Assembly (NCBI GenBank): GCA_015228935.1 | Contig: JADGCO010000047.1 | Span: 1-33,918 of the forward strand | Origin: Magnetococcales bacterium | GTDB lineage: Bacteria; Pseudomonadota; Magnetococcia; Magnetococcales; DC0425bin3 | DNA: 33,918 nt | Direction: 5' to 3' | Part shown: piece after piece, positions 1,039 to 30,642 of the stretch | Position numbering within the stretch: position 1 is the stretch's first letter | Layout of the letters: every line of letters starts with the position of its first letter | Translations under genes and position numbers: made by a program | The notes under the pieces: generated by a model | Seen by the model: only the letters and a program-made list of their open reading frames with translations | What the model was told of the DNA's origin: nothing | Database searches by the model: none

Positions 1039-1077
1039 GCCTTGATCATCGTCGATATCAACAACGATGATCAAGGC
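1039..1077. other. Perfect 14-bp stem hairpin between genes
   Basis: GCCTTGATCATCGT (1039-1052) is followed by an 11-base loop and its exact reverse complement (1064-1077). It lies 60 bases beyond the stop of the aldolase gene and upstream of the 123-896 gene. No strong U run follows on either strand, so it is either a weak or processed 3' end for the leftward operon or an operator-like site. Confidence 0.65.
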
Positions 1078-1136: not shown

Positions 1137-1916
1137 TTAATTCCGGACGACCTTGTCCAGGGCACCTTTGGCGGCACTTTGGAGGAAGAGGACATCGAGT
1201 CCCAGGATAATGTTGGTGAATCCCTGTTTGATGCGGTCATTGGCATTGTCCGGCCCGCCGCTGATGATGCCGCAGGGTATCTTGGCCCGTTTGCTGGCGG
1301 CAAGAACGGTTTGGATGGCCTGTTCCACCCGCGGGTCAGTTGTCTGGCCGAGGATGCCCATGCTCCCGGAAAGATCAAGGGCACCGATCATGATCGAATC
1401 GACACCCTTGACCGACAGGATGGCATCAATATTTTCGACCGCCTTGATATGCTCGATCATCAGAATGGTCGTGACTTCCTGGTCGGCTGTCTTGAGATAC
1501 TCACCCATGGTCAGGCCATACCCCTGTGCCCGGGAAAGACCGGCACCCCGTTCGCCCCAGGGCGGATATTTCATGGCGCGCACAGCCGCTTCGGCCTCTT
1601 CGCGGCTGTTGACCAGCGGAATGATCACCCCGTCGGGACCGGCATCGAGGATCCGCTTGATCATGGTTTTGTCGTTCCAGGGAACCCGCACCACGGTGCT
1701 GATATCGGATCCGTTGGTGGCCTGCAACATGGCCAATACGCTTTCAAAGGTGACCGTGGTGTGTTCGGTTTCGAACCATAACCAGTCAAAACCCAGACGG
1801 GACATGAGTTCCGCCACGACCGGACTGCTCATGGTGATGGTGGCCCCGATGCATACTTTTCCGGCAGCGAGATCCCGTTTCAGGCGATTTGGATTTCTAC
1901 CCCCTGTCGCATTCAT
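1137..1916 (-). CDS. HpcH/HpaI-family class II aldolase
   Basis: The 259-residue protein matches the HpcH/HpaI family of metal-dependent pyruvate aldolases, which cleave or form 2-keto-3-deoxy sugar acids and related hydroxy-oxo acids. Visible family marks are the WLWFETEHT segment with the catalytic-type histidine at about residue 52, RVPWND with arginine 77, metal-ligand glutamate in MIEH (155) and aspartate in GALDLSGSMG (181), and the YPPWGERGAG loop. Length is typical (about 250-270). The exact substrate cannot be read from sequence. It is the last gene of a leftward operon after an ankyrin protein, with its ATG overlapping the ankyrin stop in ATGA. GGAGG lies nine bases upstream of the ATG, separated by the A run, which favours translational coupling. 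In its neighbourhood (DJ-1, GH13) a role in sugar-derived aldehyde or keto-acid metabolism is plausible. Confidence 0.88.
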   Translation of the reverse strand: MNATGGRNPNRLKRDLAAGKVCIGATITMSSPVVAELMSRLGFDWLWFETEHTTVTFESVLAMLQATNGSDISTVVRVPWNDKTMIKRILDAGPDGVIIPLVNSREEAEAAVRAMKYPPWGERGAGLSRAQGYGLTMGEYLKTADQEVTTILMIEHIKAVENIDAILSVKGVDSIMIGALDLSGSMGILGQTTDPRVEQAIQTVLAASKRAKIPCGIISGGPDNANDRIKQGFTNIILGLDVLFLQSAAKGALDKVVRN

Positions 1917-3151
1917 TTTTTTTTTCCTCCAGTCGATTGTGGTTTTCCATCCAGGACTTCGAGCAGCCGTTGGCGCATGATCGGATCCCTGGTCTCTGCC
2001 GCGATGCGCCGTTGCGTGCGCCCGGAAAAATCTTCCATGTCAGTACGACCACCATTGGCGACAAACCATGCCGCCTGTTCCAGATATCCTTCAAAACGAT
2101 CCGGACTGGCCGTGGAGGCACGCAACACCGTGTCGTGCATGGCGGTCAGGCCGTTGACAATGGGGATTTCATTGATGGCATCGGTCAGTTTTTGTTGGGA
2201 AATGTGGGTTCCGCACAGGCGCAGAATGTCCAGGTGGTTGAACACGGCTCCCCGGATGATGGTCTGTGCCCCCATGGGGTGCCTTTCATGCAGGGTCGGA
2301 TCGGCACCACGGGCGAGCAGATATTTGGCCAGCTCGCTACGGAGCCTGGCAACGTCGGGATTGGCTGGAAAACCATTGTTGCCGGTTACCACCACAACCA
2401 GGGGGGGCTGTTGCAAAGGTCCGGCGAGCCGGTTGACATCGGCCTTTTGATTGTCCACACACTCCTGCACGGCCTTCAGGGTGGCATCGACGGATCTGGG
2501 ATCCTGGGCAGCCTTGGCGAGGCCATCGCCGATCAGCTTGTTGAGCTGGTCGGCAAGGTCCTGTTGGGATTTTTGCTCTGGCGGGATCACCGGGGCGATT
2601 TTTTTGAGGTATGAGGCATAGTAGGCTTTTTTATCGGCTGCCGAGGCGTCCCGGGGGCGGATGATCTCCTGCATCGGCACGTTTTCAAACTGTCTGGCCA
2701 ACTCCATGGGCCCCAGGCCCCGTGCCGTGGTGATGGCCGTATTGGCCCCACGTCCGATCAGCTCCTGGGCCAGAGAGAGATGACCATAGAAAACAGCCTG
2801 CAACAAAATGGTATGACCATTGAGATCCCATACGGCATCGATCTGGTCCGGTCGGCGATCCAGCAAAAGCCGCGCAGAACACAAATCACCCGAATGACCA
2901 GCCATGTGGATCGGCAAGGCACCGGAGATCCGATGGGCCATGGCCAGATCGGCCCCCTTGTCCAGCAGCAGAGTGACCACATCGTCATGTCCGCGTGCCG
3001 CGCCCCACAACAATGGTGTCCATCCTTCCGCATCGTATTGATTGGGATCGTTGTTGGCCAACCATTTCTGCAATTGCGGCAAATGGCCCACCTTGGCGGC
3101 GGTTATTCCCTCCTCAATGGGGGATGTGGCCTTGACTGTCGTGTTTGGCAT
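1913..3151 (-). CDS. Ankyrin-repeat protein
   Basis: A 412-residue protein with several ankyrin repeats. The clearest are at about residues 40-155, with signatures such as GWTPLLWGAARGHDDVVTLLL followed by GADLAM, a GALPIHMAGHSGDLCSARLLL unit, and GHTILLQAVFYGHLSLAQELI. Further degenerate repeats occur in the C-terminal half (about 270-390, e.g. LAKYLLARGADP). No signal peptide or membrane segment is seen, so it is probably cytosolic. Ankyrin domains bind proteins and carry no catalysis by themselves, so it is likely a scaffold or regulator of the enzymes encoded beside it (inference). The start has GAGGAG about 7-8 bases upstream, and the gene begins 27 bases after the GH13 gene. The last codons, GGA then three AAA, form a ten-A run ending at the TGA, which overlaps the aldolase start. 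Confidence 0.88.
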   Translation of the reverse strand: MPNTTVKATSPIEEGITAAKVGHLPQLQKWLANNDPNQYDAEGWTPLLWGAARGHDDVVTLLLDKGADLAMAHRISGALPIHMAGHSGDLCSARLLLDRRPDQIDAVWDLNGHTILLQAVFYGHLSLAQELIGRGANTAITTARGLGPMELARQFENVPMQEIIRPRDASAADKKAYYASYLKKIAPVIPPEQKSQQDLADQLNKLIGDGLAKAAQDPRSVDATLKAVQECVDNQKADVNRLAGPLQQPPLVVVVTGNNGFPANPDVARLRSELAKYLLARGADPTLHERHPMGAQTIIRGAVFNHLDILRLCGTHISQQKLTDAINEIPIVNGLTAMHDTVLRASTASPDRFEGYLEQAAWFVANGGRTDMEDFSGRTQRRIAAETRDPIMRQRLLEVLDGKPQSTGGKKK

Positions 3152-3178
3152 CGTTCGCTCTCCTCAAAGGAGCCATTC

Positions 3179-5662
3179 TCATTGGCGTTTCAAGACCACA
3201 ATTGAGTTGCCGGGCAGGGCCAGGGTGATTTTTCCATGGCCGTCCGCTGTACGTTGACCATTATTGAGATTGCCCCAGCCGTTGTATTGTGGATTGTTGC
3301 TGTTCAGGACCTCGTTCCAGTTGCTGCGCGGAATACGGTCATTGATCACATCGTAGGCCGTATAGGAAACGTGGTTGAGATTGAGCGCGATGAGCAGGTC
3401 CCCGGTGTTGTCCTGACGCCGGAACACCAGGATTCGATTTTGATTATGGACGTGCAGGATATCGACGTTTTTGGTACGCAACGCCGATTCATGGCTCCTG
3501 AGAGCCAGGATATCCTGATAGAACTTGAACATGTACGCACCGGTCGTGGCGCGTAAACCCGGCAGGTCTTCACGATTGTGGATGAAATTGTCATGGGTGA
3601 AGGGTTTGGCGGCTCCGACCTCTTCACCCATGAAAAACATGGGAATACCGGGTGACAGCAGGGTCACGCCCGCCACGACCCGGGTACGGGCTTCGGCCCA
3701 ACGGCGTGTCTCGCCGATCAGGGGGGCATTGTTGACGGCCACGACCAGAGTACGTGCCGAATGGACATCCCGGTCGCCTTCCCTGAAGGAAGAGTTTCCC
3801 GCTTCATCGTGGGATTCGTGGTAGACCACCTTGCCAAACTGGGATACCCAGAGAACATGGGCAAAACGGTCCATGGCCAATTCGCGATCATCGCCAAAAC
3901 CGGCTGCCCACAACAGTCTGGCTCTCGAAGAGTCGTTTTGCGCGTCGCCGATCAGATGGTGGTAGTAATCGGCATACCAGACCGCATCAAAACCAAGTCC
4001 CCCGGTTTCCGTATCCTGCGTCACCTTGTCCCATCCCGAATGATCCTCGGCCATCAGAAAGACATTCGGCTTGATCAACCGCAGGGTGCGGCACCATTCC
4101 CGCAGAAACTTGACACCAAAGGCCTTGGCACCACCACTGGAAGAACCATCGGCATGCAGGACGGGATAGGAATGGATGCTCGTGGTTTGATCCACCCGGA
4201 AGCCGTCGATGTGGAACTCGCTGATCAGCATGGCGGCACTGCTGATGAACATTGTGCGCACCATCTCTTCCCAGTAGCGGGGTGCATAACCGGTGGACAT
4301 GTTGTCGATGTAACCGCCATGTCCGGGGGGATTGTCATTGGGGTAGCCGCCCGGGCGACTTTCGTACCAATAATAGATGTTTCTTTCATGATTATTGGTA
4401 TCGTACATCCACTCGTCGCGGTCGCCGTCGGCAATGTAGTGGTTGTACACCACGTCGAGAATCACGGCCATGCCGTGGCGATGACAGGCCCGCACGAAAT
4501 GCTTGAACTGGTCGCGGCCCCCGTTGGCAAATTCGATGGCCATGTAGTGGGAGGTGCCATATCCCCAACTCATGCTGCCCTGGAACTGGCCCATGGGGAG
4601 CAGCTCGATGGCATTGACGCCGAGGTCCGCCAAATACCCGAGCAGATCCATGGCGTCCTTGAATGATCCGACTTGCAGACGTCCGCACGCGCCACACTCT
4701 TTTTCGCCGCCCAGACTGCCGACATGCATTTCATAGATCACCAGATCCTCGATGCGTTTTGGCATGGGGAAGCCGGGGCGGAATTCATCGCGCCAGAAGG
4801 CTGTTTCGTCCACCCAATCGTTGGGTGCCGGTTCGGCAGCCCTGGCAAAGTCGCAGACGACCAGCTCCGGATTGACGACGTTCGAACAACTCTTGCTGCC
4901 ATCCAGGTTGCGCCAGGTTCCCGAATAGGTTTTTCCCTGGGGGTTGAATTCACCACGGCCCAACTGGCAACGGGAGTAAAGATCGGTGCGGTAGGCAACC
5001 GAACCATCATCCCTGGTGACCCTGAACATGTAGGGTTTGTGGTCAAAGTTTTGGAAGTTGTTCAGGGCGGGGGTTGTTGTTACATCGGTTTCCCAGATGT
5101 CTGCGTCGGTCCGGCGCAGCATGGGAATGACGGCAGGCGATTCATCCGGTTTTGTCGTGATTCCGTTGCCGGCGTCATCGATGTAGGCGCTTTCCAGGTT
5201 GCCGCGCACGACTTCAACTTTTCGGGCATTGGGTGCCCAGACGGCAAAGCGGATTGCCGGGTCTCTGTTTCCCTGGAGAAACAGTTTGTTGGCACCCAGT
5301 CGCCGACAATGGGTCAGGTAGTAGCGTTGTTCACCTCCCGCTGCGGAGAGCGTGAAGGTGCGATACCTTTCCATGGAGGCGGGATCGGAGAGTTCGGTGG
5401 GAATGATCCAGAGGTTCGATCCCCGGGGGGCATCCGCCCGTACTCCCCAGTGAAACGTTTTGCCCACGTCACTTTCGGCAAAAATCACCGTGGCACGAAA
5501 GGCCGGTGCGCCGTCTTCGGCCTGAAACGCCTCCATGGGAGTGTCGGTCCAGGTGTCGGAGAAACGACCTGCCGAGTCCCAGGTACCCGAGAGACGGGCA
5601 TTGGTGAACAGGGGTTGGCGCAAACCGGTATAATACAGGAAGGTCATCGATATTTGGGCCAT
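3179..5662 (-). CDS. GH13 alpha-amylase superfamily enzyme, branching-enzyme-like
   Basis: An 827-residue GH13 enzyme acting on alpha-glucans. The (beta/alpha)8 barrel spans about residues 305-690 with all four conserved regions: DVVYNH (403-408), GFRVD with nucleophile Asp491, LMAED with acid/base Glu539, and ESHDE with Asp619. A CBM48-like beta-sandwich precedes the barrel (about 135-240, IRFAVWAPNARKVEVV), and an additional 120-residue N-terminal module (NARLSGTWDS, HWGVRADAP) looks like a second beta-sandwich. The C-terminal beta domain is about 730-827. The layout is closest to glycogen-branching or maltooligosyltrehalose-type enzymes, but region II (DQTTSIH) and region IV (ESHDE) differ from classic GlgB, so I leave the specificity open. 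No signal peptide is seen, so it is probably cytosolic. GGGGAG precedes the start, and it lies 17 bases after the DJ-1 gene in the same operon. No other glycogen genes are in the window. Confidence 0.9.
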   Translation of the reverse strand: MAQISMTFLYYTGLRQPLFTNARLSGTWDSAGRFSDTWTDTPMEAFQAEDGAPAFRATVIFAESDVGKTFHWGVRADAPRGSNLWIIPTELSDPASMERYRTFTLSAAGGEQRYYLTHCRRLGANKLFLQGNRDPAIRFAVWAPNARKVEVVRGNLESAYIDDAGNGITTKPDESPAVIPMLRRTDADIWETDVTTTPALNNFQNFDHKPYMFRVTRDDGSVAYRTDLYSRCQLGRGEFNPQGKTYSGTWRNLDGSKSCSNVVNPELVVCDFARAAEPAPNDWVDETAFWRDEFRPGFPMPKRIEDLVIYEMHVGSLGGEKECGACGRLQVGSFKDAMDLLGYLADLGVNAIELLPMGQFQGSMSWGYGTSHYMAIEFANGGRDQFKHFVRACHRHGMAVILDVVYNHYIADGDRDEWMYDTNNHERNIYYWYESRPGGYPNDNPPGHGGYIDNMSTGYAPRYWEEMVRTMFISSAAMLISEFHIDGFRVDQTTSIHSYPVLHADGSSSGGAKAFGVKFLREWCRTLRLIKPNVFLMAEDHSGWDKVTQDTETGGLGFDAVWYADYYHHLIGDAQNDSSRARLLWAAGFGDDRELAMDRFAHVLWVSQFGKVVYHESHDEAGNSSFREGDRDVHSARTLVVAVNNAPLIGETRRWAEARTRVVAGVTLLSPGIPMFFMGEEVGAAKPFTHDNFIHNREDLPGLRATTGAYMFKFYQDILALRSHESALRTKNVDILHVHNQNRILVFRRQDNTGDLLIALNLNHVSYTAYDVINDRIPRSNWNEVLNSNNPQYNGWGNLNNGQRTADGHGKITLALPGNSIVVLKRQ

Positions 5663-5679
5663 ACGTATACTCCCCTGGG

Positions 5680-7248
5680 CTACCAGCCCCAGCGTCTGAG
5701 AGGTGGGTCACCGTCCAGGACTTCAATGAGCTTGCGACCGGTCAGATAGGAATCCGGGGTGGAGCGTCCGGTGATGAAGGGATAATCGACAATGACGCTT
5801 GTCGGATGGCCAAAGTTGCCGATATAGCCGCCCTGCGGTCCGGTGGCATCGCGCAGGATGTATTCGAGCGGGTAAGGGGGGGGACCCATGTTGAAGTCGA
5901 GGGGTTTGCCACGACCGGCCATGAACCCGGTCCCATCTTTGTAGTCATATTCGAGACAGTGGCCGGTGACCTGTTTGCCCCAGATAAGGGAGCGACGATT
6001 TTCAATGTTGCGGGCAAAAGCGAGGCAGGCCACGCTGTAACATTGGGCGGCAATGGGTTTGCCGGCCTTGTGAAAGGCCAGGATCAGGTCATGCAGACGT
6101 TGATTGTTGACCATATCCACAATCGGGCCACTTCCCCCAACCATGATCATGGCGTCATAGGATTGAATGCGCTCTTCAGCCCGATTCAGGTGGATGTTGT
6201 AAATTTCCATGGCCCGCACGAATTGCGGATGCGACCAATAAGGGCGTTCCGGAAACCATTCGGCCAGATTGACGGGGCGGTTCAGGCGTTGGCCTTGCCT
6301 GGAAGTGGGATCGTCCATGGCGCGGACCTTGGCGGCCATGTCATAAGATGTCGCCGAACGAGCCAAAGGTGGGTCGATGAAGTTGGGATCCATGGAGACC
6401 CCGATGGCATTGGGGCGTTTGCCGGTTGGCGTGCAAAAATCCACGGTATATCCAACACGGTCAAACTCTTCCAGTGGTCCAATCAACTCTTCACCCCAGT
6501 AACCCCATTCGGAAAGAACGGTCAGGATCCGGCGGGGGCGCGGGTTGGCGACGACAGGCGTTGTGGAAACAACCGCCGAAGGGGTGCTGACCGCCGTGAT
6601 GGCCGGCACGACGGTTCCGGCTTCCATGGCCAGGATCTGGTCGCGGATTGCGTCCACGAATTCAGGGGAGCGGGAGGCACTGTCGTCGGTCACGATATCG
6701 GCATCCACCACGACGCCACTGGGTGACGCGGTGTAGACACCACCGGCATTGACCACATCCGGCAACAAGACTTTATTGCAAATGACGCGGCGTCCGGCCA
6801 GGGTTTCGGGAACCGGCGTGAGAATCCACAATCCATGGCAGGGGAATCCCTTGACGATACGCGGGTTGCGCATCGCCTGATACATGAATTGCACAGCCGG
6901 GGCGTGACGGCTGTCACCGGCCTGGGGTGGTGCCGGGTGCGGATAGTCGCGATCATCCAGCCAGCGCAAACGCACGCTGGTATAGTTGGCGGCCTGAATG
7001 ATGGCCGCATAATCCTCCACATGAACGTTCTGAAAGTCGATTGTCACTTCCAGAGTTTCCAGTTGTCCCCCGACATGGTCCACGTCACTGACAAACGTGG
7101 CCTTGGGTTGTCCCCACAAACGGGACATGATGTGGACTTCGGCACCGTAAGATTCAAAACGTGACTTGTAGGTGGCAATCTCGGAAGGAACGTATTCCGT
7201 CTCCACAAGAACGGCAATTTTTTTGCCGCGCAGGGGCAGGTCATTCAT
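5680..7248 (-). CDS. Tandem DJ-1/PfpI (class I glutamine amidotransferase-like) protein
   Basis: A 522-residue protein built from two DJ-1/PfpI-type domains. Domain one (about 8-200) opens with KKIAVLVETEYVPSE and has a nucleophile-elbow cysteine in GFPCHGLW (Cys137), followed by VVNAGGVYT and a C-terminal helix. Domain two (about 240-512) opens with RRILTVLSEWGYWGEEL, has IMVGGSGP, the elbow cysteine in AAQCYSVACLA (Cys403) and a final TGRSTPDSYLTGRKLIEVL helix. A Thr/Val/Ala/Pro-rich linker (about 210-238) joins them. Family members act as cysteine proteases, glyoxalases or deglycases, chaperones or hydratases, so the reaction here is unknown. Both cysteines being kept suggests two active sites. 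AAAGGAGA lies a few bases before the ATG at 7248. It is the first gene of the operon running to the aldolase. In this company it could remove reactive sugar aldehydes (inference). Confidence 0.88.
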   Translation of the reverse strand: MNDLPLRGKKIAVLVETEYVPSEIATYKSRFESYGAEVHIMSRLWGQPKATFVSDVDHVGGQLETLEVTIDFQNVHVEDYAAIIQAANYTSVRLRWLDDRDYPHPAPPQAGDSRHAPAVQFMYQAMRNPRIVKGFPCHGLWILTPVPETLAGRRVICNKVLLPDVVNAGGVYTASPSGVVVDADIVTDDSASRSPEFVDAIRDQILAMEAGTVVPAITAVSTPSAVVSTTPVVANPRPRRILTVLSEWGYWGEELIGPLEEFDRVGYTVDFCTPTGKRPNAIGVSMDPNFIDPPLARSATSYDMAAKVRAMDDPTSRQGQRLNRPVNLAEWFPERPYWSHPQFVRAMEIYNIHLNRAEERIQSYDAMIMVGGSGPIVDMVNNQRLHDLILAFHKAGKPIAAQCYSVACLAFARNIENRRSLIWGKQVTGHCLEYDYKDGTGFMAGRGKPLDFNMGPPPYPLEYILRDATGPQGGYIGNFGHPTSVIVDYPFITGRSTPDSYLTGRKLIEVLDGDPPLRRWGW

Positions 7249-7290
7249 GATGGCATCTCCTTTGACGACATGAAAAAACGGATGTTCGGC

Positions 7291-7324
7291 AAAACAGCAT
7301 CGGCCAGGGGCCGATGCTGTTTTT
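7291..7324 (-). terminator. Strong intrinsic terminator after the AGE-like gene
   Basis: AAAACAGCATCGGCC and GGCCGATGCTGTTTT form a perfect 15-bp stem with a three-base loop. T runs flank it on both strands. It sits between the stop of the 7333-9390 gene and the start of the DJ-1 gene, so the operon downstream must have its own promoter or depend on read-through. Confidence 0.85.
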
Positions 7325-7332
7325 CCAGCCTT

Positions 7333-9390
7333 TCATGCGTGATGTTTGCCATCCAGAACCTTGAAATTGATCGTCAGACTCTGCTCGCACTCTTGCGGTT
7401 TCAGGTTGATCTGGAAGGAGTTGGGAGAACGGGGTTTCAGTTTGTCGGTCTGGTCCATGCCATTGAGGAATACCTTGTTGATCATCACCGAGCCGGGTTT
7501 CATGAAATCCGGCAGGACATTGATGGATTCCTGCCCGCAATTGGGAGCCACACGGAAGTACATGTTGAAACTGGCGTCGGATTCCTTGATTTCCTTCGAA
7601 ATGTACGCCCGGATGTAAAAGTGGGCCAGATAGTTCAATTCGAAGACATGATAGCCGGAGATGGAATGGCCACCTTTGTCGGCAAAGCTGCCATCGATGA
7701 CCGGTTTGCCATCGTCGGTGGTACGGAAAAACACCCCCTGGCGATCCCGATCCAGGAAAAAGGCATTCCAGAACGCGATGGACTCCCGGGCCAGCTCGCG
7801 GAAATGGGTCTCTCCGGTGGCTCCATAGAGGATCAGGTAGGCCAGGATGCCTTGTTCCTGCTGCCAGAAATCCTTGGTGTTTTCCCAGGAAAACTCCATG
7901 GGCAGGCCGTTTTTGGGATTGCGCTCCATGGCGTCGAAAATGCCGCCCCGGAATTTGTCCACCCCGACCTCGGCCATGTCGTTGGCAATTTTGCTGGCGA
8001 CGGCCTTGTACTGGTCGGCTCGCCGTTGACAATCTCTGGCCTCTTCGGGATCGCTGTGGATCAGTTCTTCTGCACGTCCTTCGAAATAGAACGCAACCCG
8101 GGTCAGGTTCCAGGAAATTTTCAGATTGTGGCCGACAATGCCCCGGTTTTGTTGCCAGAACCAGGAGTGATCCGGTACCCAATCCTGTGAAAAGCGCTCA
8201 TTGACATATCTGGAACCCGGATCGGGAAACTTGTCGGCGATCAGTTGTGAAGTTTCCTTGAGAATCAACAGGCAGGTTTCGGCCAGATCATTGCGGTGCT
8301 TGACGGCATTGCCCTCGCCGATGGGGGAGGGGTCCAGGGCCAGCATCAGGTTGATCAGGTAGGCGGGAATGTGATCGCCCACCGAATTCCAGTTTTTGCG
8401 CGACTTGTTTTTGGCCCCTGTATTAGGCAGGTTGTCCAGATAATTCGTGTCCGGGCGCATGAGAACAGGATCCAGATGTGAAAAATACCCCCCCAGACCG
8501 GGAAAGTTTTTGGACTTGATCTTGTCATTGTCGCCATCATAATAAAAATCTTGGAACATTCTGACGGTGCGACGAATGTCTTCCAAAACTTCGGCGTCCA
8601 GGGAGATCCGGTAGTACTGGGTCATGCCGGCCAGGGCGTAGATTTGTTCATAAAGCGGAATCGTGCCCCGATCATCGGCGTTTTCGGAGGTCATGATCTG
8701 GACATAGCCATTTTTTTCCTTGCGTCGGCCATACGCCCAGAAACAGTATTTTCCATCGTTATCGAGGCTGCGGAAGGTGACCCGTTGATACTCGACTCCC
8801 GCCTTGGCAGCCAGGAAGTACCGTTTGTTGCCGGTCAGGAGGAAGGCAGAGGAAAGACCATAGATCAGGCGCGACAGCGTGGCGCATTCCTGGACCGAAT
8901 CCGTGGTGGGGGAGCCTTGAATGTTGAGATTGGTCCGGTAGAACTCGGCAAAATCGTCTGCCGTATAGGTGCGGCGGTCCTGAAACAGGTTGTCAAGCCA
9001 GCGGTTGGCCAACAGGGTGATCTGGGTCAACCACCAATGTGTTTCCTCAAATACATAGGCATTGGGGTCCGAATGCATGATGATGATGCGGCGTGCTTCC
9101 AGGACCTTTGTATCGTTGTTTTCCTGAAAAATGCCGGTGACGATCAACAGGCGACCTTCCCGGACGTATTTGTCAATGTTGCGCTCAATACCCACGGCAT
9201 TCGTGTTTGGTTCGGCAACCCGGTCGCGACCCAGACCATCCAGATTGGTCAATACTTCAAACCAGCTCGTATCCCCCACCTTGACCACAAAGTTGTCGCC
9301 GCTGCGACACTGGATGGTGAATTGATGTCCCTGGGCATTGATTGAATGCACATGTCCGGCAAAGACAACGTGCTGTGAATAGTTTTGCAT
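7333..9390 (-). CDS. AGE-like (alpha/alpha)6-barrel protein with extra N- and C-terminal domains
   Basis: I chose the ATG at 9390 (685 residues) because AAGGGG lies about 6 bases upstream; a longer reading from 9477 adds 29 residues without such support. The protein has an N-terminal beta-rich module (first about 90 residues, VFAGHVHSINAQGHQFTIQC), a long helical middle of about 430 residues with repeated aromatic and acidic helices, and a C-terminal beta-rich tail of about 110 residues (SINVLPDFMKPGSVMINKVFL). The helical part resembles the N-acylglucosamine 2-epimerase / cellobiose epimerase fold, e.g. GIFDAMERNPKNGLPMEFSWENTKDFW and LAYLILYGATGE. Such proteins epimerise or isomerise sugars, and some are glycoside hydrolase-like. 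No signal peptide is evident. The gene is followed by a strong terminator and then the DJ-1/GH13/ankyrin/aldolase operon on the same strand, suggesting a shared carbohydrate role. Family call moderate, activity unknown. Confidence 0.75.
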   Translation of the reverse strand: MQNYSQHVVFAGHVHSINAQGHQFTIQCRSGDNFVVKVGDTSWFEVLTNLDGLGRDRVAEPNTNAVGIERNIDKYVREGRLLIVTGIFQENNDTKVLEARRIIIMHSDPNAYVFEETHWWLTQITLLANRWLDNLFQDRRTYTADDFAEFYRTNLNIQGSPTTDSVQECATLSRLIYGLSSAFLLTGNKRYFLAAKAGVEYQRVTFRSLDNDGKYCFWAYGRRKEKNGYVQIMTSENADDRGTIPLYEQIYALAGMTQYYRISLDAEVLEDIRRTVRMFQDFYYDGDNDKIKSKNFPGLGGYFSHLDPVLMRPDTNYLDNLPNTGAKNKSRKNWNSVGDHIPAYLINLMLALDPSPIGEGNAVKHRNDLAETCLLILKETSQLIADKFPDPGSRYVNERFSQDWVPDHSWFWQQNRGIVGHNLKISWNLTRVAFYFEGRAEELIHSDPEEARDCQRRADQYKAVASKIANDMAEVGVDKFRGGIFDAMERNPKNGLPMEFSWENTKDFWQQEQGILAYLILYGATGETHFRELARESIAFWNAFFLDRDRQGVFFRTTDDGKPVIDGSFADKGGHSISGYHVFELNYLAHFYIRAYISKEIKESDASFNMYFRVAPNCGQESINVLPDFMKPGSVMINKVFLNGMDQTDKLKPRSPNSFQINLKPQECEQSLTINFKVLDGKHHA

Positions 9391-9682
9391 GAATTCCCCT
9401 TTCGACGTTCGCTGAATGAATTGATTCCGACGATCCCGACAGCGAGCATATACCAGGAGAATTTGAGAATCAATCAAAGTTTTATCTGATCACCTGACAA
9501 TTATTAACTTAATTATGGGTATCCGTACCCCGGAAAAGCCGGAATTATATCAGAATAAATTTTAATTTCATCGTTATTTTAAATTTTTTCTGAAAATAAT
9601 AGAAGACGATGGGTGTGTTGACAACAAATATTAATTATTTTTAATATTAAATTCAAAACGGCACTCCCGGGCGTGACAACTC

Positions 9683-10342: not shown

Positions 10343-10938
10343 GCAATTTCCCTCGGCCTGGGCTGAAGTGTGACGCAACTCACGACGTGGAATCCTACCA
10401 AATCAGAGAATTTTTGCCCATGGACAGCCTGCTGCTTACAAAATTTTAAAATTCTGAAATGTTGAGAGAAAAAAAATATTATAATGGTAATATATTTTGT
10501 CGTTGATTATCGAAAGGATATTGGGAAAAATTTTGTTTGTATGATTTTTTGTAAGTTTATCTTGAATCATGATGGCGTTTACGTTTTAACATATTGATTT
10601 TTAATATTATAATTTGCTGATAAATTGGAAGGGATGAATTTTTTGGTTTAAAAAATAATTCCTTGAAACCTGAATATGTCGCGTGTTAGACTTACACAAG
10701 CTTGGAATATGGGCCGTCGTCATCGTTTCGGCCACCAAGCTGGTGGTGTCCATCCGGCCCGTCAGCATCATTGCATATGAGCTTGAAATTGCATAGGTTC
10801 CAGCATCTACAGGACAGATTGGCCCAAACGATGATCAAGCGGAATGTGTTTCTTTAAGGTCTTTTCTTGACTGACAATCTAACGGATTGTTGAAAGGTTG
10901 TGTACGTTCGACCCAATTCAAAACATGGAGGTTTGGAC
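10343..10938. other. AT-rich intergenic region without a confident gene
   Basis: This is an AT-rich stretch with many A/T runs between divergent genes. One GC-richer patch (about 10709-10780) can be read as a 23-codon His/Arg/Gly-rich frame starting ATGGGCCGTCGT, with only weak GGA upstream. A small hairpin, ACAATC-TAACG-GATTGT (10874-10890), lies about 50 bases before the exported-protein start and could be an operator. I see no tRNA or known RNA. Confidence 0.5.
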
Positions 10939-11781
10939 ATGAAACGCAAAGGAATATTCGTATCAGTTTTACTATCTAGCTTGATCGGCGGGACTTTATC
11001 TGCATTTGCTGCTGACGCTGGTGCTGGTGCTGGTGCTGGTGCTGGTGCTGGTGCTGGTGCTGGTGCTGGTGCTGCATCAGGGCCTTTTGATCTTAAGATC
11101 ATATTTGGCGCTGAATTCTCGACATACCAAAACGAGTCCGCACAAGTATCCGGAAATGATGGGGTCTGGTCATCGAAAGGGTTCTTTGTTGATCTCGCCA
11201 AGGATTGGTCAATTAAGTTGGATAATAAAAGTCTTGTTACACCTAAATTTTCAACTTCAATTGCCCTCAGTAGGGAGAACATTGAACAAGATAAAACAAG
11301 CCCAGCAGCGGCTCCTGGACTTACGGAAATTATTCGCGATGCGCAAACGGTATCCACAAATGCTTCGTTTGTCTTTGATGTAAAAGGTTCGAATCTATTT
11401 GGTGTGTTGGGAGGCGGTTTTTTGATACCTACCGAGTCAAAAGTGACGCATGATTTTATTTCGAGGTACTTTGTTGGTGTTGGGTTAAAGGAAGAAACGA
11501 AAGTTGCGAGCTATGTGTTTGATATCGGTTATGGTTACGATGAGAGATTCAAAGAAAATTATAGGCCATTTCAGGGTGATGCGATAGTGCGAATTTTCAG
11601 GGGTGGTGATAATCCTGAGACCATTAAAGATGGTGGGGGAAAAGCAGCCGATAGTGCTTATTTTATTAAAACAAGATGGAGTCCAGATGGTCATAAAGGT
11701 CCGGATGATTTAAAAGTAATGCTCGGTTTAGAAAAGAGTTTTACTGATCTGACTGGCGCTATCAATCAGCTTATCAAATAG
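10939..11781 (+). CDS. Exported protein with Ala-Gly repeat linker, probable outer-membrane barrel
   Basis: The start is the ATG at 10939 with GGAGG about 8 bases upstream, giving 280 residues. A Sec signal peptide is clear: MKRKG, then a hydrophobic core (IFVSVLLSSLIGGTLS) and AFA cleavage site. Immediately after the predicted cleavage come nine exact Ala-Gly dipeptides, coded by nine perfect GCTGGT repeats. The remaining about 235 residues are rich in alternating polar/hydrophobic and aromatic stretches (FFVDLAKDWSIKLDN, SYVFDIGYGYDERF), consistent with an outer-membrane or periplasmic beta-rich protein, although the C-terminus does not end in the usual aromatic residue. I do not recognise a family. 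It is much more AT-rich than mnmA or the HAD gene, as is the amidase gene that follows after a terminator. The pair may have been acquired together. Confidence 0.8.
   Translation: MKRKGIFVSVLLSSLIGGTLSAFAADAGAGAGAGAGAGAGAGAGAASGPFDLKIIFGAEFSTYQNESAQVSGNDGVWSSKGFFVDLAKDWSIKLDNKSLVTPKFSTSIALSRENIEQDKTSPAAAPGLTEIIRDAQTVSTNASFVFDVKGSNLFGVLGGGFLIPTESKVTHDFISRYFVGVGLKEETKVASYVFDIGYGYDERFKENYRPFQGDAIVRIFRGGDNPETIKDGGGKAADSAYFIKTRWSPDGHKGPDDLKVMLGLEKSFTDLTGAINQLIK
11017..11070 (+). repeat. Nine-copy GCTGGT microsatellite inside coding sequence
   Basis: Nine perfect tandem copies of GCTGGT encode nine Ala-Gly units just after the signal peptide. Because the unit is six bases, copy-number changes keep the reading frame and would only lengthen or shorten the linker. 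Confidence 0.97.
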
Positions 11782-11945: not shown

Positions 11946-12710
11946 ATGAATATCTATATGCCGTCCAGTGTAGTAGAAGAAGTGGAATATCCAGGTAATT
12001 TGTTTTTACAATCATCCAGATGTGACGTAAAAGTCAAGAGACTCCAAGAGTGGCTCAATTTTCATTTGTGTGGTACAAAGATAGACGGTTTGTTCGGATC
12101 CGCTACCAAGTCAGCTCTTGCCAAATTTCAAGGAAACAATAATATTAATGCTTCTGGTCAATTAGATCAGACAACATGGAGTTTATTAGTCAAACCGATG
12201 GTTGATGCGATGGCAATCCCGGCATCCACTGGCAAGAGCTATGGAGATGTTGTGCAAATGATCGCCAAGCAGCACTTGACAGTTCGGCCTGTAGAAATTG
12301 GAGGACAGAATTGTGGACCATGGGTCAGGGCCTATATGAAAGGCCATGATGGCAATAACTATCCATGGTGTGCTGGTTTTGTATCTTTCGTGTTGGCACA
12401 GTCTGCCCAATGCCTGGGTACAAACGCACCGCTAAGTTATACTTTTTCGTGCGATGATATGGTAAAAGATGCTCGTGGTTCAGGGTTATTTCTCGGAATA
12501 GATCACAGTGAACGATCCCCATTGATATTTGCTAAGAGAAGAACTTCAACAGATTGGACTCATGTTGGATTTTGCTTTTCATGGGAAAGTGGTGTGTTCG
12601 TGACAATTGAGGGTAATACCAACGATCAACACTCAAGAGAAGGTTTTGAATTGGCTGAAAAATACCGTAGTACAGAAGAAGAAGGTTATGATTTTATAAG
12701 GATCACGTAA
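11946..12710 (+). CDS. Peptidoglycan-binding cysteine amidase/peptidase (CHAP/NlpC-P60-like)
   Basis: A 254-residue protein with two parts. Residues about 22-82 form a PG_binding_1-type domain (VKRLQEWLNFHLCGTKIDGLFG, SALAKFQ, LDQTTWSLL). Residues about 95-254 form a papain-like amidase domain: catalytic-type cysteine in NNYPWCAGFVSFVL (Cys142), histidine in TDWTHVGF (His206) and the polar third position in TIEGNTND (Glu222 to Asn224). This layout matches cell-wall hydrolases and endolysin-like enzymes that cut peptide stems or the amide bond of peptidoglycan. No signal peptide or membrane segment is present, so export would need another route (phage holin, secretion system) or lysis. AGGAG lies 8 bases before the ATG. 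It is AT-rich like the preceding exported protein. No phage structural, holin or immunity gene is beside it. Confidence 0.85.
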   Translation: MNIYMPSSVVEEVEYPGNLFLQSSRCDVKVKRLQEWLNFHLCGTKIDGLFGSATKSALAKFQGNNNINASGQLDQTTWSLLVKPMVDAMAIPASTGKSYGDVVQMIAKQHLTVRPVEIGGQNCGPWVRAYMKGHDGNNYPWCAGFVSFVLAQSAQCLGTNAPLSYTFSCDDMVKDARGSGLFLGIDHSERSPLIFAKRRTSTDWTHVGFCFSWESGVFVTIEGNTNDQHSREGFELAEKYRSTEEEGYDFIRIT

Positions 12711-16840: not shown

Positions 16841-18703
16841 ATGCGACACGATCAGGTTGGAGTTTCAGGGGCTGCCAAATCACGTGATTCATTGCGTGCC
16901 GCCCTGCAAGCCCATAAAAATGGCAATATTTCTCAAGCCTTGCAACTCTACGAATCGGTCCTGCTTTCCGAACCGGACAACGTCTCTGTGCTTTTGTTGG
17001 CGGGAAAAATATTGGTTGAGTCATCGGCTGTGGACCGGGGCGTGATCTTGTTGCGTCGGGCCATGGAACTGGAACCTGGATCGGTCACCGGTCAGTTTAC
17101 ACTTGCATATGGCCTGTGCTTTCAAAAACATTATGATGAAGCATTGAGTCTTTATCTGCAAATATTGGCGCAAGATCCCCATCTGGAAAATATTCACTAT
17201 TACATCGGTGATACCCTGGCCAAACTGGGCCGCCATGATGAGGCACTCGGGTACCTGGCCAAGGCGCATCAGATGGCACCAGATGATCCGATAGTTATTC
17301 ATGTTTTAAATCAGGTATTGATAAAAATAGCCATACGGGCACAGGAAAATAATCAGAAATCTCACGCCAGGCAAATGTATGAGACGGTTCTCATGAGTGA
17401 ACCGAACAATATCATTGCGCTTTTATTGCTGGGAATGCTCCTGGTGCGTTCGGATGCTTCGGAAAAAGACGCGGAATTTGAGAAGGGTACGGAACTGTTG
17501 CGGCGTGCTGTCGCCCTGGATCCCAGGCAGTTGACCAGTCAAATGACCTTGGCGCATGGCTTGAGAATGCAATTGATGTACAAAGAGGCGCTCGATATCT
17601 ATCTGAGAGTCCTGGCTCAAGATCCGGGTTACGAGCAAATCCATTATTATGCAGGTTTGGTTCTGACCAAAATGGGTCGCTATTCCGAAGCCGTGGAGCA
17701 TCTTTCCCGGGAGTTGCAGGTCAATCCGGATGATGCCAATGTTCTTTTCTTTTTGGGATTGGCCAAATTGTCCGGCAATGATGCCAGCCGTGAAGAGGGG
17801 GTGGCCTTGATCCGACAAGCCTTGGCAAACAAGCCGGATCTGTTGGGAGTGGACCAGCCGGATATGGTGCCATTACAGGAATATCGGCAGCGGCAGATGG
17901 CCAACAGCCTGGTCTTTCGAACACCGGATGAACCAAAATCCTTGCATTTGCCAACGCCGTGCGCCTGTTTTTCCTATCCCAAGTGCGGGACGCATTTGTT
18001 GTCGGACATCACGCAACTGATCACGAATCATCATTTTTACTGGCCGAATGACTACGAGTCAAATTCAGTCCCAAAAGATGCCCTGAGCCGGATTCCTGAC
18101 AAACATTTTCTGATCGGACATTGGCATGCCACTCTTGAACTGGGCGCGGACATGCAGACCAGAAATTACAAAGCCATTGTCCAATACCGGGAACCCCGGG
18201 ATCAAATGGTCTCATTTTATTGTTATTATACAGGAATGGCCGCCGATCCCCATGGGATGTATACGGCCATGCTGACGAATGTCAGTCAGGAAGAGGCATT
18301 CAATCGGCTTATTATTGGTGGTCCCGTCAAGGGCGGGGGTATCGTGCCGGGACAGGCATTCAACATGGTTGCCTGGATGGAACAATGGCGTCTGATGAAT
18401 GCATATTATCAGGTCCCGGTCTATTTTGTCTCTTATGAGGATATGGTGGAAAACAAGGTTGAGACCATCGGCCGCATCGCCCGGTTTCTGGAGATGCCCC
18501 TCTCCCGGGAAGAGTGTGAGGTGATCGCCGAAGCGACGGGTTTCCATAAAAAATCAAAAACCATGGAAAAAAATGCCGTACCCAAAAATTTCAAACGCAA
18601 AGGGATTGTCGGCGATTGGCGAAACTATTTTACAGAGGCCAACAGGATTCTGTTCAAAACGCTTAATGGAGAAATTCTAACACGTCTGGGATATGAGGAA
18701 TAA
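16841..18703 (+). CDS. TPR-repeat sulfotransferase fusion
   Basis: A 620-residue protein joining tetratricopeptide repeats to a sulfotransferase. Residues about 15-345 hold TPR units in two similar blocks of about 135 residues (15-150 and 165-300): LYESVLLSEPDNV matches MYETVLMSEPNNI, and YLQILAQDPHLENIHYY matches YLRVLAQDPGYEQIHYY. Residues about 370-620 are a cytosolic-type sulfotransferase: the PAPS 5'-phosphosulfate loop FSYPKCGTHLL (Lys381), a GHWH catalytic-type histidine region, the 3'-phosphate segment QYREPRDQMVSFY with Arg and Ser, and the end signature RKGIVGDWRNYFT. It would transfer sulfate from PAPS to an alcohol on a glycan, lipid or small molecule; the acceptor is unknown. No signal or membrane segment. 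AAGGA precedes the ATG, 23 bases after the SPOR gene, so it may share that operon. Confidence 0.92.
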   Translation: MRHDQVGVSGAAKSRDSLRAALQAHKNGNISQALQLYESVLLSEPDNVSVLLLAGKILVESSAVDRGVILLRRAMELEPGSVTGQFTLAYGLCFQKHYDEALSLYLQILAQDPHLENIHYYIGDTLAKLGRHDEALGYLAKAHQMAPDDPIVIHVLNQVLIKIAIRAQENNQKSHARQMYETVLMSEPNNIIALLLLGMLLVRSDASEKDAEFEKGTELLRRAVALDPRQLTSQMTLAHGLRMQLMYKEALDIYLRVLAQDPGYEQIHYYAGLVLTKMGRYSEAVEHLSRELQVNPDDANVLFFLGLAKLSGNDASREEGVALIRQALANKPDLLGVDQPDMVPLQEYRQRQMANSLVFRTPDEPKSLHLPTPCACFSYPKCGTHLLSDITQLITNHHFYWPNDYESNSVPKDALSRIPDKHFLIGHWHATLELGADMQTRNYKAIVQYREPRDQMVSFYCYYTGMAADPHGMYTAMLTNVSQEEAFNRLIIGGPVKGGGIVPGQAFNMVAWMEQWRLMNAYYQVPVYFVSYEDMVENKVETIGRIARFLEMPLSREECEVIAEATGFHKKSKTMEKNAVPKNFKRKGIVGDWRNYFTEANRILFKTLNGEILTRLGYEE

Positions 18704-18964: not shown

Positions 18965-20203
18965 TCAGAATTTGTAGCCATAATTCAGCGTGAAACCTGT
19001 ATACCCGCCACCAAAGGTATAGGTCAGACCGAGTTTGTTGTCCTTGTAGGTGTAGTTGCCAATGGTCATGTTGGTGCCGAGATCGAAGCCAATGTCGGTG
19101 GAGCTTTTGACGTACACATCATCACCACCAAAATAGGTGTTGATAGCAAAAAGTTCACCTGTGACTTTTTTGGAGAGGAGATCAAAGGGCAATTTCCTCT
19201 CGAAGGCCAAGCCGTTTCTGAAGATATAGTTACTCAAATCGTAGTTGGTTTCGTATCCGCCGACTTCAATCGAGTAGGTTTTTGAGTAGCTGATCATGTT
19301 ACCCATCATGATCTTTGAACCATCATCCGGAATCAGGTAGGAAAAATCACTGGTAAGCGATCCTGAATAGATACCGGAGACAGCCCCCAGGTCTTTTGAG
19401 CCACCCACGCCGTCACGCAAAAATCCGGTTATGTTCCATTTATTCATGACTGGAACTTTGAGGCCAACACCCAATGAGCCGGTATAGGATTTGGAAGACT
19501 CCGTTTCAATCATGCTGAGGGGCACGTCAAAAAAAAGCGTGTATTTGTTGATCACTTTCGAATAGAAAAGAGGCAGCGTGGTGGTATCGGTCTTGAATCC
19601 GTTGCTCTTGTATTGCCCGTAGCGGATTCCGACACCCAGCAATCCCGGGTTGGCATGATCTGATTTGGCATCCGATTTATTGGCGTCTTCTTTTTGCGAG
19701 ACATCCTTGTCTTCAACTCCGATTCCGGTGGCGGCCCTGAAATCCGATGCCGCCATCTGTGACATCAGGCTGTTCGGATTGCCGGCAATGGGGTCGATGG
19801 GCGTGGATTTGGCATACTCTTTGAACATGCGGGAGAGAATATTCGGATTTTTCTTGAACCAGTCTTCCAGCATGTCCTGGCTTTGTTTCCGTGTGGCACC
19901 ATTGAATGTTTGTGTAATGCCCAATGAAGGAATATTGAACTGTAATGAGGGCGAATTGGCTGTGTAGGCAAAATTGGCTTCGACGCCACGCAAATTCAAA
20001 ACGGCTGTTGCCTGGGATTGTTCCGTGTAACCGATATTCAGGCTGTCCATGGAGTATTTTGCCGTGCTGGAAAGATCACTCAGGCCAACCGATGCTGTCT
20101 TGCCACCTGTTGTGGCTGTGAAGGTATAAACATCAGCAGCCTGGACTGGGTTCCAGGCCAGGGTAACAGCAAGAACAGGTAGAAACTTGATTGACTTTAT
20201 CAT
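18965..20203 (-). CDS. Outer-membrane beta-barrel protein, unknown function
   Basis: A 412-residue exported protein. It opens with a Sec signal peptide (MIKSIKFLPVLAVTLAWNPVQA, cleavage after AQA or AADV region). Residues about 25-200 form a soluble N-terminal part with a short helical section (KQSQDMLEDWFKKNPNILSRMF). From about 205 to the end, alternating aromatic/polar strands and turns occur (GLLGVGIRYGQYKS, TLFFDVPLSM, KLGLTYTFGGGYTGFTLNYGYKF), and the protein ends in Phe, the C-terminal barrel signal recognised by the BAM machinery. I do not recognise a specific porin or autotransporter family; the organisation suggests an autotransporter-like or large barrel. AAGGAG lies close to the ATG at 20203. 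It stands 48 bases before the hisD stop and reads in the same direction as hisD and murA, but is probably a separate function. Confidence 0.82.
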   Translation of the reverse strand: MIKSIKFLPVLAVTLAWNPVQAADVYTFTATTGGKTASVGLSDLSSTAKYSMDSLNIGYTEQSQATAVLNLRGVEANFAYTANSPSLQFNIPSLGITQTFNGATRKQSQDMLEDWFKKNPNILSRMFKEYAKSTPIDPIAGNPNSLMSQMAASDFRAATGIGVEDKDVSQKEDANKSDAKSDHANPGLLGVGIRYGQYKSNGFKTDTTTLPLFYSKVINKYTLFFDVPLSMIETESSKSYTGSLGVGLKVPVMNKWNITGFLRDGVGGSKDLGAVSGIYSGSLTSDFSYLIPDDGSKIMMGNMISYSKTYSIEVGGYETNYDLSNYIFRNGLAFERKLPFDLLSKKVTGELFAINTYFGGDDVYVKSSTDIGFDLGTNMTIGNYTYKDNKLGLTYTFGGGYTGFTLNYGYKF

Positions 20204-23145: not shown

Positions 23146-23514
23146 GGGGGTGAAACGGCTTCGACGGGGTATCGAAAGGCTTTGACGGCGACCCGGCATG
23201 AGCACCGCCGCAAGAGGCTCATAATCACAATTGCCAACGACGAGTTCTACGGCGAAGCTCTCGCTGCCGCCTAAAACGGTAGCAGAGCGGGGTTCAGACC
23301 TGAGCCCGGCAACAGAAGTACCTAAAAACAGGGTCAAGCCGGAATTATGAAATCGCCGGTCTAAATCCAGGGTTTCCCAGTTCTCCGAGGTAACGGAGGT
23401 TCCGAAGCCTGCCGACTGCAACGGCCCAGGAACTATATGTCGGCAAAATGGTCGTGACTCCTTCAGGTTCAGTACGTATCTCGGACCCGGGTTCGACTCC
23501 CGGCACCTCCACCA
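23146..23514 (+). ncRNA. ssrA: Transfer-messenger RNA (tmRNA)
   Basis: tmRNA frees stalled ribosomes by acting as both tRNA and mRNA and tags the unfinished protein for degradation. The 5' end GGGGGTGAAACGGCTTCGAC and the 3' end GGTTCGACTCCCGGCACCTCC-ACCA form the acceptor stem (GGGGGUG with CACCUCC) and T arm. The resume codon GCC is at 23233 and the tag frame runs to TAA at 23272-23274. The encoded tag is ANDEFYGEALAAA, preceded in the finished protein by the alanine on the tRNA part. It is about 369 bases long, the normal one-piece form. It is transcribed away from murA. Its 3' end serves as an integration site (see the att copies). Confidence 0.98.
23491..23514 (+). repeat. att site copy in the tmRNA 3' end (attL-like)
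   Basis: The last 24 bases of ssrA, starting GTTCGACTCCCGGCACC, recur at 27055-27078 with two mismatches. Integrases commonly use the tmRNA 3' end as attachment site and restore it on insertion. Confidence 0.8.
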
Positions 23515-28933: not shown

Positions 28934-30631
28934 TCATTGGGCAAGGGTTTTGTCAAGTTGACCGATCCAAAGATCGAGGGGAATGGTTGCCAAAGGGACA
29001 TGTTCCCAGGTTTTTGCATCCACAAAGGCATCGCGAATGGCCTGTCCCTTGCCGGAAGGACCCGTCTCGGTTGCTTTCGGGATCAAAGCCAGAACCCGCA
29101 AAGGTTGCGATGTATGGAAACGAATTTTACGCCAGTCGTTTACATCGATCCAATCCGATACCATCAATGCCCGTCCGGGCAAATCCAGTCTGATATTGAC
29201 GTTGGGTGTGAACCAGATATCTGTTTTTGGATTGAATTTTTGAGTCAACTCCGCGACGACATCAACAGGTGACCGGGTTGTCGAAGACAAGAACGGATTG
29301 AACAGACCACTGCTGGCAACCTTGTAATCCGGCTGAATGCGCACAATCTTGCCAGCCATGGAAACCAAACCATATCCCATGGGAATCAGCAGGTAAAATG
29401 CACCTCCCATGGCCAAGGTCATGCGCCACCAGCGTTTTTCCCGGGGCGATTGCCAGATGTGGACCCCTTCACGGATCAGTACCGGGAATACGGCAAATGT
29501 GGTTACCTGCAAATAGGTGCTGAGGTAACCAATGTGCGTATTTGCCCAGACAATCAACAATCCGAGCATACCGAGAAAAATGGACAGGATGCCCAGTTTT
29601 CCAGGTCCCTGCCAGGCACCGGGGCGGGCCAGCAGCATCAAGAACAAAATTCCACCCGGTATGCCAATCAAATTGACGACAAACGAACCATCAATACCCT
29701 GAATTATTTGACGACTGGGGTGAAAGATACCATGATCAGGATGGAGCAGAAGATAATTCCAGAGCGCATCCGCATCACCCAGACACAGGGCTGGATAGGT
29801 AAACAAGCGAACCAGCACGGACCAGTTCAATTTACCGGGTGAATAGAGCGCATCAAACTGATTGACATATCCGCCATAATGAAGATTCAAAAAACTCCAG
29901 ACCAGAATGGGTAACAAACAGGTCAAGGTACCCAAAATCGATATTTTGAAGAGATTGTCTTGCTGATGAGAGAACCAACGCCCCATGGCCGTCAGCCACA
30001 AAAATCCCAAGGCAGGTCCGGCAATGAATGCTCCCGAAAATTTGAATACATAGGCCATGCCGCAGCCAAATCCCAGGATACAAGACAGAAATATTCTGTG
30101 ATGAACCATTCCTGGGCGGGTCACATGCCATGAACCCAGCAAGAGCCAGGGAGCAAGCGCGAAAACAAGTATTTCTGCGTTATTATAGGAAAATATATAG
30201 TTATTCGTAAATCGAAGACAAGGCACATAGCACGACAGCATCAAACCGACAATACCGGGAATATTGAACTTTCCAAACCAGAGTGCCCAACCCATGGCTC
30301 CCAGCAAAACGCAGGCTACAGAGAGGATCCGCAAGGACGTACCAATGTCCAAACCCATGGACATGAGCGGCAGGACAAATAATTGTGTTCCCGGTGGCCA
30401 ATTATGGATCCAGTGCAATTGATCACGTGACAGATCATTTTGATCGGCGGCCAAATAATGATTTGGAGAGGGTGATATATTTTTCAAATACTGATCTACG
30501 GAAAGCACTTGAATGGAAGGATCAAAACCAACCCCTTGCGGAACATGAATGGTCAGAAGAATGACGATGAGTGCCACTCCCAGACCGATCAGGGCTTGAT
30601 AACGAGGTTGCTGAATCGAGATGGGTTTCAT
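28934..30631 (-). CDS. Polytopic membrane protein, GT-C glycosyltransferase-like
   Basis: A 565-residue integral membrane protein with about 10-12 hydrophobic segments (e.g. ALIGLGVALIVILLTI, RILSVACVLLGAMGWALWF, IVGLMLSCYVPCLRF, ISILGTLTCLLPILVWSFL) and a C-terminal soluble domain of about 140 residues. A charged loop after the first segment (QLHWIHNWPPGTQLFVLPLM) is typical of GT-C enzymes such as ArnT or PMT-like glycosyltransferases, which use lipid-linked sugars at the periplasmic face. A specific DxD/DE motif is not clear, so substrate and donor are unknown. It is the last gene of the leftward polysaccharide operon, starting 12 bases after the radical SAM gene stop. The C-terminal domain (TDIWFTPNVNIRLDLPGRALMVSDWIDV) resembles no family I recognise. 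Confidence 0.78.
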   Translation of the reverse strand: MKPISIQQPRYQALIGLGVALIVILLTIHVPQGVGFDPSIQVLSVDQYLKNISPSPNHYLAADQNDLSRDQLHWIHNWPPGTQLFVLPLMSMGLDIGTSLRILSVACVLLGAMGWALWFGKFNIPGIVGLMLSCYVPCLRFTNNYIFSYNNAEILVFALAPWLLLGSWHVTRPGMVHHRIFLSCILGFGCGMAYVFKFSGAFIAGPALGFLWLTAMGRWFSHQQDNLFKISILGTLTCLLPILVWSFLNLHYGGYVNQFDALYSPGKLNWSVLVRLFTYPALCLGDADALWNYLLLHPDHGIFHPSRQIIQGIDGSFVVNLIGIPGGILFLMLLARPGAWQGPGKLGILSIFLGMLGLLIVWANTHIGYLSTYLQVTTFAVFPVLIREGVHIWQSPREKRWWRMTLAMGGAFYLLIPMGYGLVSMAGKIVRIQPDYKVASSGLFNPFLSSTTRSPVDVVAELTQKFNPKTDIWFTPNVNIRLDLPGRALMVSDWIDVNDWRKIRFHTSQPLRVLALIPKATETGPSGKGQAIRDAFVDAKTWEHVPLATIPLDLWIGQLDKTLAQ

Positions 30632-30642
30632 GGCGTGTTGTT

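Follow-up and report, generated by a model that had tools for sequence, protein, structure and literature searches.

The stretch of Magnetococcales DNA analysed here (33,918 nucleotides, contig JADGCO010000047.1 of assembly GCA_015228935.1; hereafter, the window) carries, at positions 1137-9390, five large genes that encode an AGE-like protein, a tandem DJ-1/PfpI protein, a GH13 enzyme, an ankyrin-repeat protein and an HpcH/HpaI aldolase. The sequence-only reading of the window had described them as a same-strand locus with the last four genes tightly packed, and an open reading frame (ORF) check agrees: all five are intact, complete open frames on the minus strand, and the last four are separated by gaps of 17 and 27 bp and a single 4-bp overlap. 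In the order of transcription, the features are:

7333..9390, minus strand: AGE-like gene, 685 aa, ATG at 9390, stop at 7333; core gene
5680..7248, minus strand: tandem DJ-1/PfpI gene, 522 aa; core gene
3179..5662, minus strand: GH13 gene, 827 aa; core gene
1913..3151, minus strand: ankyrin-repeat gene, 412 aa; likely scaffold
1137..1916, minus strand: HpcH/HpaI class II aldolase gene, 259 aa; accessory gene
1039..1077, minus strand: perfect 16-bp hairpin, possible transcription end, fold z -3.24

The TTG start at 9477 listed for the AGE-like gene merely gives the longest frame, and the ATG at 9390 is the most likely start. The AGE-like gene is separated from the DJ-1 gene by 84 bp, followed by the 17 bp between DJ-1 and GH13, the 27 bp between GH13 and ankyrin, and the overlap of the ankyrin and aldolase genes. 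The hairpin lies about 60 nt past the aldolase stop and is not accompanied by a clear T run. Sigma-70-like promoter matches occur upstream of the AGE-like gene and are not used as evidence.

Each of the five families named in the sequence-only reading is backed by a Pfam match, and the (alpha/alpha)6 barrel is additionally supported by AlphaFold2 modelling and Foldseek comparison. The AGE-like protein matches GlcNAc_2-epim (9.7e-7), and its model (pLDDT 91.8) aligns with cellobiose 2-epimerase (3wkf; Foldseek E 9.9e-18, TM 0.78 by target) and glucose 2-epimerase (8h1l; E 9.1e-17), which places the barrel among the known structures of the AGE superfamily; the protein also carries an extra N-terminal beta domain (residues ~1-110) and a C-terminal beta segment (~605-680). 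The tandem DJ-1 protein (ThiJ_like, 2.1e-16, and two DJ-1_PfpI stretches) consists of a PfpI/YhbO-like N-terminal half with Cys137-His138 (hereafter, DJN) and an Hsp31/glyoxalase-III-like C-terminal half with Cys403 (DJC). Both halves contain the nucleophile-elbow Cys and the upstream Glu of the DJ-1/PfpI superfamily, and the best structural matches are Arabidopsis DJ-1d, a tandem glyoxalase III, and PfpI/YhbO; the model of the tandem is moderate (pTM 0.58), and the domain-domain arrangement is not read from it. The GH13 protein (Alpha-amylase, 2.5e-21) combines a branching-enzyme/TreZ-like catalytic domain, which contains the catalytic Asp, Glu and Asp of the family, with N-terminal beta modules, a CBM48-like match and a C-terminal all-beta domain (3.9e-12); against the NCBIfam model of the 1,4-alpha-glucan branching enzyme GlgB, it scores 173 bits, below the cut-off of 577. 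The ankyrin protein matches Ank_2 (2.2e-16), and the aldolase, which reached no NCBIfam equivalog cut-off, is a member of the HpcH_HpaI family (6.5e-36; 124 bits against a cut-off of 25) with a PDB match to 1dxe (3.3e-45).

The linkage of the core genes extends far beyond this bacterium. When a profile built from the AGE alignment was run against 84,980 species genomes, it recovered 64 loci, spread over about 15 groups of phylum rank; the window itself is left out of the locus counts, and because the loci were found via AGE, the partner counts are conditional on AGE. Locus content was obtained from profile searches of all six frames, which replaced ORF clustering given the long antisense frames in GC-rich loci. 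DJN is present in 57 of the 64 loci, GH13 in 49 and DJC in 46, with all three in 37; DJN, GH13 or both are found in 60 loci, and contig ends truncate three of the four with neither. Among the 31 loci with 9 kb or more of sequence on each side, DJN is present in 28, GH13 in 27, DJC in 22, SnoaL in 15, ThDP in 14, EthD in 11, GMC in 8 and ankyrin in 8. DJN lies within 200 bp of AGE in 54 of 62 matches and never on the opposite strand, and all matches to DJN, DJC, ThDP, GMC, VOC, EthD, toroid and ankyrin are on the AGE strand. The DJN and DJC halves are fused in 21 other loci and encoded by separate genes in the remaining ones. Around this core, the accessory genes vary by locus and include a ThDP decarboxylase, SnoaL-like cyclases (several per locus), EthD, VOC, a GMC oxidase, an aldo/keto reductase (AKR), an HpcH/HpaI aldolase and ankyrin proteins. 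The general architecture is AGE, DJN, DJC, (ThDP), (SnoaL, tautomerase-SnoaL), (GMC), (VOC), (EthD), (ankyrin), GH13. The loci keep nearly all these genes on the same strand and mostly close together, with a conserved core and tailoring enzymes that vary, as in biosynthetic gene clusters.

A reverse test on plasmids, independent of the AGE-based finding, gave the same result: DJC occurs in 14 of 72,556 plasmid records, all 14 among the 18 that carry AGE, and the sole full-length match to the window-type GH13 in the same collection falls on one of the AGE/DJC records. Thus, the co-occurrence search proposed in the sequence-only reading found the core linked in 64 loci of about 15 phyla and again on plasmids; the outcome that would have counted against that reading, homologues almost never adjacent, turned out to be the opposite of what is seen, and the linkage that makes these genes a unit is far stronger than is visible from the window alone. 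The statement that the gene set corresponds to no standard operon also holds.

Within the order, AGE, the DJ tandem and ankyrin are confined to the same three of 48 genomes, namely, that of the window, a second species of the same genus (G001) and a member of another family (G039), and the window-type GH13 is found in the same three, the G001 copy being cut by a contig end; chance does not account for this coincidence. The locus of G039 (L026) has the order AGE, DJN, DJC (as separate genes), toroid-ankyrin-SnoaL fusion, GH13. In G001, AGE, DJ and GH13 extend up to the edge of one contig, whereas the ankyrin (70% identical) and aldolase (90% identical) genes lie together near the end of another; the genes flanking the G001 cluster differ from those in the window. 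In this sister species, a dispersed GC-rich palindromic repeat of the GGGGCTTCGCCCC type adjoins the ankyrin gene and the end of the contig (L126, 13760-14093), and a GGGGCGGAGCCCC stretch at the left end of the window (~20-45) resembles it. Reverse co-occurrence by GH13 across 398 genomes of the phylum produced only two matches, the gene being too rare for this comparison to have power.

The presumed catalytic residues are invariant throughout: H340, H421, E512 and H581 of AGE in 60 of 60 sequences; C137, H138 and E16 of DJN in 57 of 57; Cys171, Glu22 (C-half numbering) and the His of DJC in 44 of 44; and the GH13 triad D491, E539 and D619 (regions II, III and IV), together with H408, R489 and H618, in 39 of 39 orthologues. 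The same applies to E54 and the GDG...N motif of the ThDP enzyme (26 of 26), which is closest to benzoylformate decarboxylases (3.5e-63), and to the His/Asn of the GMC protein (12 of 12), which is closest to pyridoxine/choline oxidases. Because these residues are invariant, the cluster proteins are probably active enzymes rather than structural relics. HMMER alignments place E512 of AGE at the WWxQxEA motif of known epimerases and H581 at their C-terminal His motif. Lys424 (window positions 8119-8121), three residues past the presumed catalytic His421, is invariant in the 60 orthologues as well; the matching residue in known epimerases is Asp or Glu, which we take as a lead and not as a test. 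Given this lysine, the chemistry of the AGE-like protein may differ from that of known epimerases.

Relatives of the ankyrin protein are fused to putative pathway enzymes in several arrangements: toroid-ankyrin(-SnoaL), where the toroid is of the prenyltransferase type, SnoaL-SnoaL-ankyrin-aldolase-like, SnoaL-ankyrin-ThDP and DJN-ankyrin. The window ankyrin protein is 39% identical, over its whole length, to the ankyrin part of the G039 fusion. The ankyrin protein is therefore a likely enzyme scaffold, a role already suggested in the sequence-only reading that fits the fusions to toroid, SnoaL, HpcH/HpaI, ThDP and DJ-1 domains elsewhere. In two loci, L050 and L063, the domain fused to ankyrin belongs to the HpcH/HpaI aldolases (Pfam 5.6e-7 and 3.2e-7, respectively; in L050, also by a PDB match), and the ankyrin and HpcH/HpaI genes overlap in the window; therefore, the association recurs. 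These fusions are the best support for counting the aldolase in the cluster, and the case for its linkage consists of one sister species (G001) and the two fusions. The window aldolase was rejected as a constant member: none of the other 64 loci encodes a close homologue, and two of them have only the divergent ankyrin-fused domains.

The phylogeny of AGE is patchy, with 21 changes of phylum label against a minimum of 14. Two Magnetococcales copies stand far apart in the tree: the window AGE groups with those of Rhodospirillaceae, other Pseudomonadota and Actinomycetota, whereas L073 falls with Aeromonas diversa and Niastella; the labels come partly from binned contigs, so that single placements are not proof. 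Two of the AGE-bearing plasmids are conjugative. Because of the scattered placements and the plasmid carriage, horizontal movement of the cluster as a unit appears to be the simplest reading. One conjugative plasmid, from Nostoc (L103), belongs to the window's own branch and carries, between EthD and GMC, two genes for Nif11-like leader peptides (precursors of ribosomally synthesized and post-translationally modified peptides) at 19173-19833.

Plasmid copies of AGE with 34-38% identity branch separately in the tree. This sister branch keeps DJ-1, ThDP, GMC, VOC, EthD and SnoaL, and mostly has GlgX in place of the window-type GH13. Its Streptomyces copies adjoin genes for GlgB, a GlgE-type maltosyltransferase, a maltokinase-like protein and an NDP-sugar synthase, and its Runella copy adjoins a glycogen synthase gene. 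Through the sister branch, the core is thus connected with alpha-glucan metabolism; the link proposed for the window is supported by analogy only, through its branching-enzyme-like GH13 and the GlgX, GlgB, GlgE, maltokinase and glycogen synthase genes of the sister branch. Genes for STAS, anti-sigma, SpoIIE and MinD/ParA proteins often lie beside AGE and GlgX on plasmids of this branch (L104, L107, L108, L110 and L114), and the STAS/SpoIIE genes suggest partner-switch regulation.

Our preferred reading, tentative and held at just short of an even chance, is a mobile, modular metabolic cluster that turns a glucan-derived sugar into a carbonyl-rich small metabolite. In this scheme, GH13 would remodel or open a storage alpha-glucan; the AGE enzyme would isomerise the released aldose; the aldolase or the ThDP enzymes would form or cleave C-C bonds beside the carbonyl; the two DJ-1 units would handle 2-oxoaldehyde or 2-oxoacid intermediates; accessory enzymes would cyclise or oxidise the product to a small metabolite; and the ankyrin protein would hold the pathway enzymes together. 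We infer the order of the steps, the substrates, the product and the scaffold role. The accessory set (ThDP decarboxylase, SnoaL, EthD, VOC, GMC and AKR) looks more like biosynthetic tailoring than plain detoxification: the variety of tailoring enzymes combined with a fixed core speaks for biosynthesis, and the combination of carbonyl-acting accessory enzymes with a sugar-acting core suggests a path from a glucan-derived sugar to an oxidised small molecule. Several points weigh against this reading. Neither a dedicated transporter nor a carrier protein was seen to recur constantly among the loci, and no polyketide synthase (PKS) or nonribosomal peptide synthetase (NRPS) was seen. A single common product is unlikely because the accessory sets differ so much. 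The window's own accessory set is small and lacks ThDP, SnoaL and GMC, and in the sister species the ankyrin gene has the repeat, not GH13, upstream, so that the five genes may not be contiguous there. A bolder version, namely, a new class of mobile biosynthetic cluster that starts from storage glucan or sugar, employs exchangeable ankyrin platforms and makes a family of carbonyl-rich metabolites in at least 15 phyla, strikes us as conceivable but doubtful.

The most serious rival, though in our estimate an unlikely one, is control of carbonyl or glycation damage coupled to glucan turnover, in which the DJ-1 pair, VOC, AKR and the aldolase would clear 2-oxoaldehydes arising from stress-induced use of glycogen, as a stress module. 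The best DJ-1 relatives are glyoxalase-III-like (DJ-1d) and PfpI/YhbO proteins, which keeps aldehyde clearance in contention; the STAS, anti-sigma and SpoIIE genes of the sister branch point in the same direction, and one carrier is a desert cyanobacterium. However, damage control leaves the ThDP decarboxylase, the GMC oxidase, the multiple SnoaL proteins, EthD and the Nif11-like precursors unexplained, and does not account for the very patchy distribution and lineage-specific mixing that are typical of biosynthetic clusters; furthermore, DJ-1 glyoxalases are normally encoded by stand-alone genes. Improbable, to a greater degree, is a modified or alternative storage-glucan pathway, where GH13 and AGE would synthesise or modify an unusual polymer or compatible solute that the other enzymes oxidise or decorate. 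The affinity of GH13 to branching enzymes and TreZ, and the GlgB, GlgE, glycogen synthase and NDP-sugar synthase genes of the sister loci are consistent with such a pathway, but most loci have GH13 only, without a synthase, and the substrates of ThDP, SnoaL and EthD enzymes are small molecules rather than polymers.

We consider it highly improbable that the enzymes belong to a signalling or conflict (defence-like) system and make a signal or warhead for nearby STAND, TIR, SIR2 or CHAT proteins. Such genes do occur: nSTAND-type proteins with TIR-like domains near L066 (11987-18662) and L071 (13759-19667), a gene with a SIR2 domain downstream in each of the two Sphingobium loci, and NB-ARC and CHAT genes near plasmid copies. 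However, only a minority of loci have them, frequently on the opposite strand, and they are common in these multicellular bacteria. Genes of these types lie near the cluster at L064 (15487-19722), L105 (5084-8605) and L110 (17434-18786). Defence as the principal function and a phage origin were both rejected: PADLOC matched only generic ankyrin and GlgB-like models, so that the core genes do not match known anti-phage systems, and none of 50,697 phage records contained AGE. An operon of unrelated housekeeping enzymes brought together by chance has practically no standing: all five families are individually common, but for the core and ankyrin, chance association is ruled out by the plasmid reverse test and by a linkage conserved in about 15 phyla.

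Elsewhere in the window, the protein encoded at 10900-11781 has a signal-like start followed by a Gly-Ala repeat (GAGAGAGA...) in its N-terminal part, and no Pfam or NCBIfam match. The region 11946-12710 encodes a peptidoglycan-binding domain coupled to a part that resembles endolysins, with matches to PHROG endolysins, and that at 16841-18703 a TPR protein with a partial match, below the model's cut-off, to the magnetosome protein MamA. A tmRNA gene with the tag peptide ANDEFYGEALAAA is located at 23146-23514. At 28934-33742, a radical SAM/SPASM protein gene adjoins heptosyltransferase-like and methyltransferase-like genes on one strand, and the same region also encodes a 565-aa protein without an NCBIfam match.

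A set that is kept across about 15 phyla, swaps its accessories and rides on plasmids must confer a benefit worth carrying. If the biosynthetic reading is true, the cluster would link the metabolism of storage carbohydrates to small-molecule production of a new type, and it would become possible to test directly which physiological roles AGE-like, paired DJ-1 and SnoaL-like proteins have. The ankyrin fusions would be a natural example of bacterial enzyme scaffolding. Every protein family involved is known, and the cluster as a unit appears new. Full-text searches of an open-access library turned up no description of it, so that 'undescribed' is provisional.

Compared with known systems, the window AGE shares the (alpha/alpha)6 barrel and the invariant His/Glu motif residues with AGE epimerases (cellobiose 2-epimerase, the Runella glucose 2-epimerase and the sulfoquinovose isomerase YihS) but differs from them in its low identity (~16%), the two extra beta segments, the family-specific invariant Lys424 and its fixed gene partners. 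The DJ-1 protein has the fold, nucleophile Cys and Glu of Arabidopsis DJ-1d and bacterial PfpI/YhbO/Hsp31, and the tandem layout of DJ-1d; unlike in these proteins, its halves come from different DJ-1 subgroups, have separate genes in many species and are linked to AGE and GH13. With glg/tre clusters (GlgB, GlgX, GlgE and TreS), the loci have in common a GH13 or GlgX enzyme, and the sister branch sits among glg genes; the window cluster, in contrast, lacks a synthase or phosphorylase, and we know of no classical glg operon with AGE, DJ-1, ThDP, SnoaL, GMC or ankyrin partners. Natural-product tailoring sets (SnoaL, EthD, VOC, GMC and ThDP) are alike in the variable tailoring around a fixed core, plasmid carriage and patchy spread, whereas the core here is formed by sugar and glucan enzymes in place of PKS, NRPS or terpene synthase.

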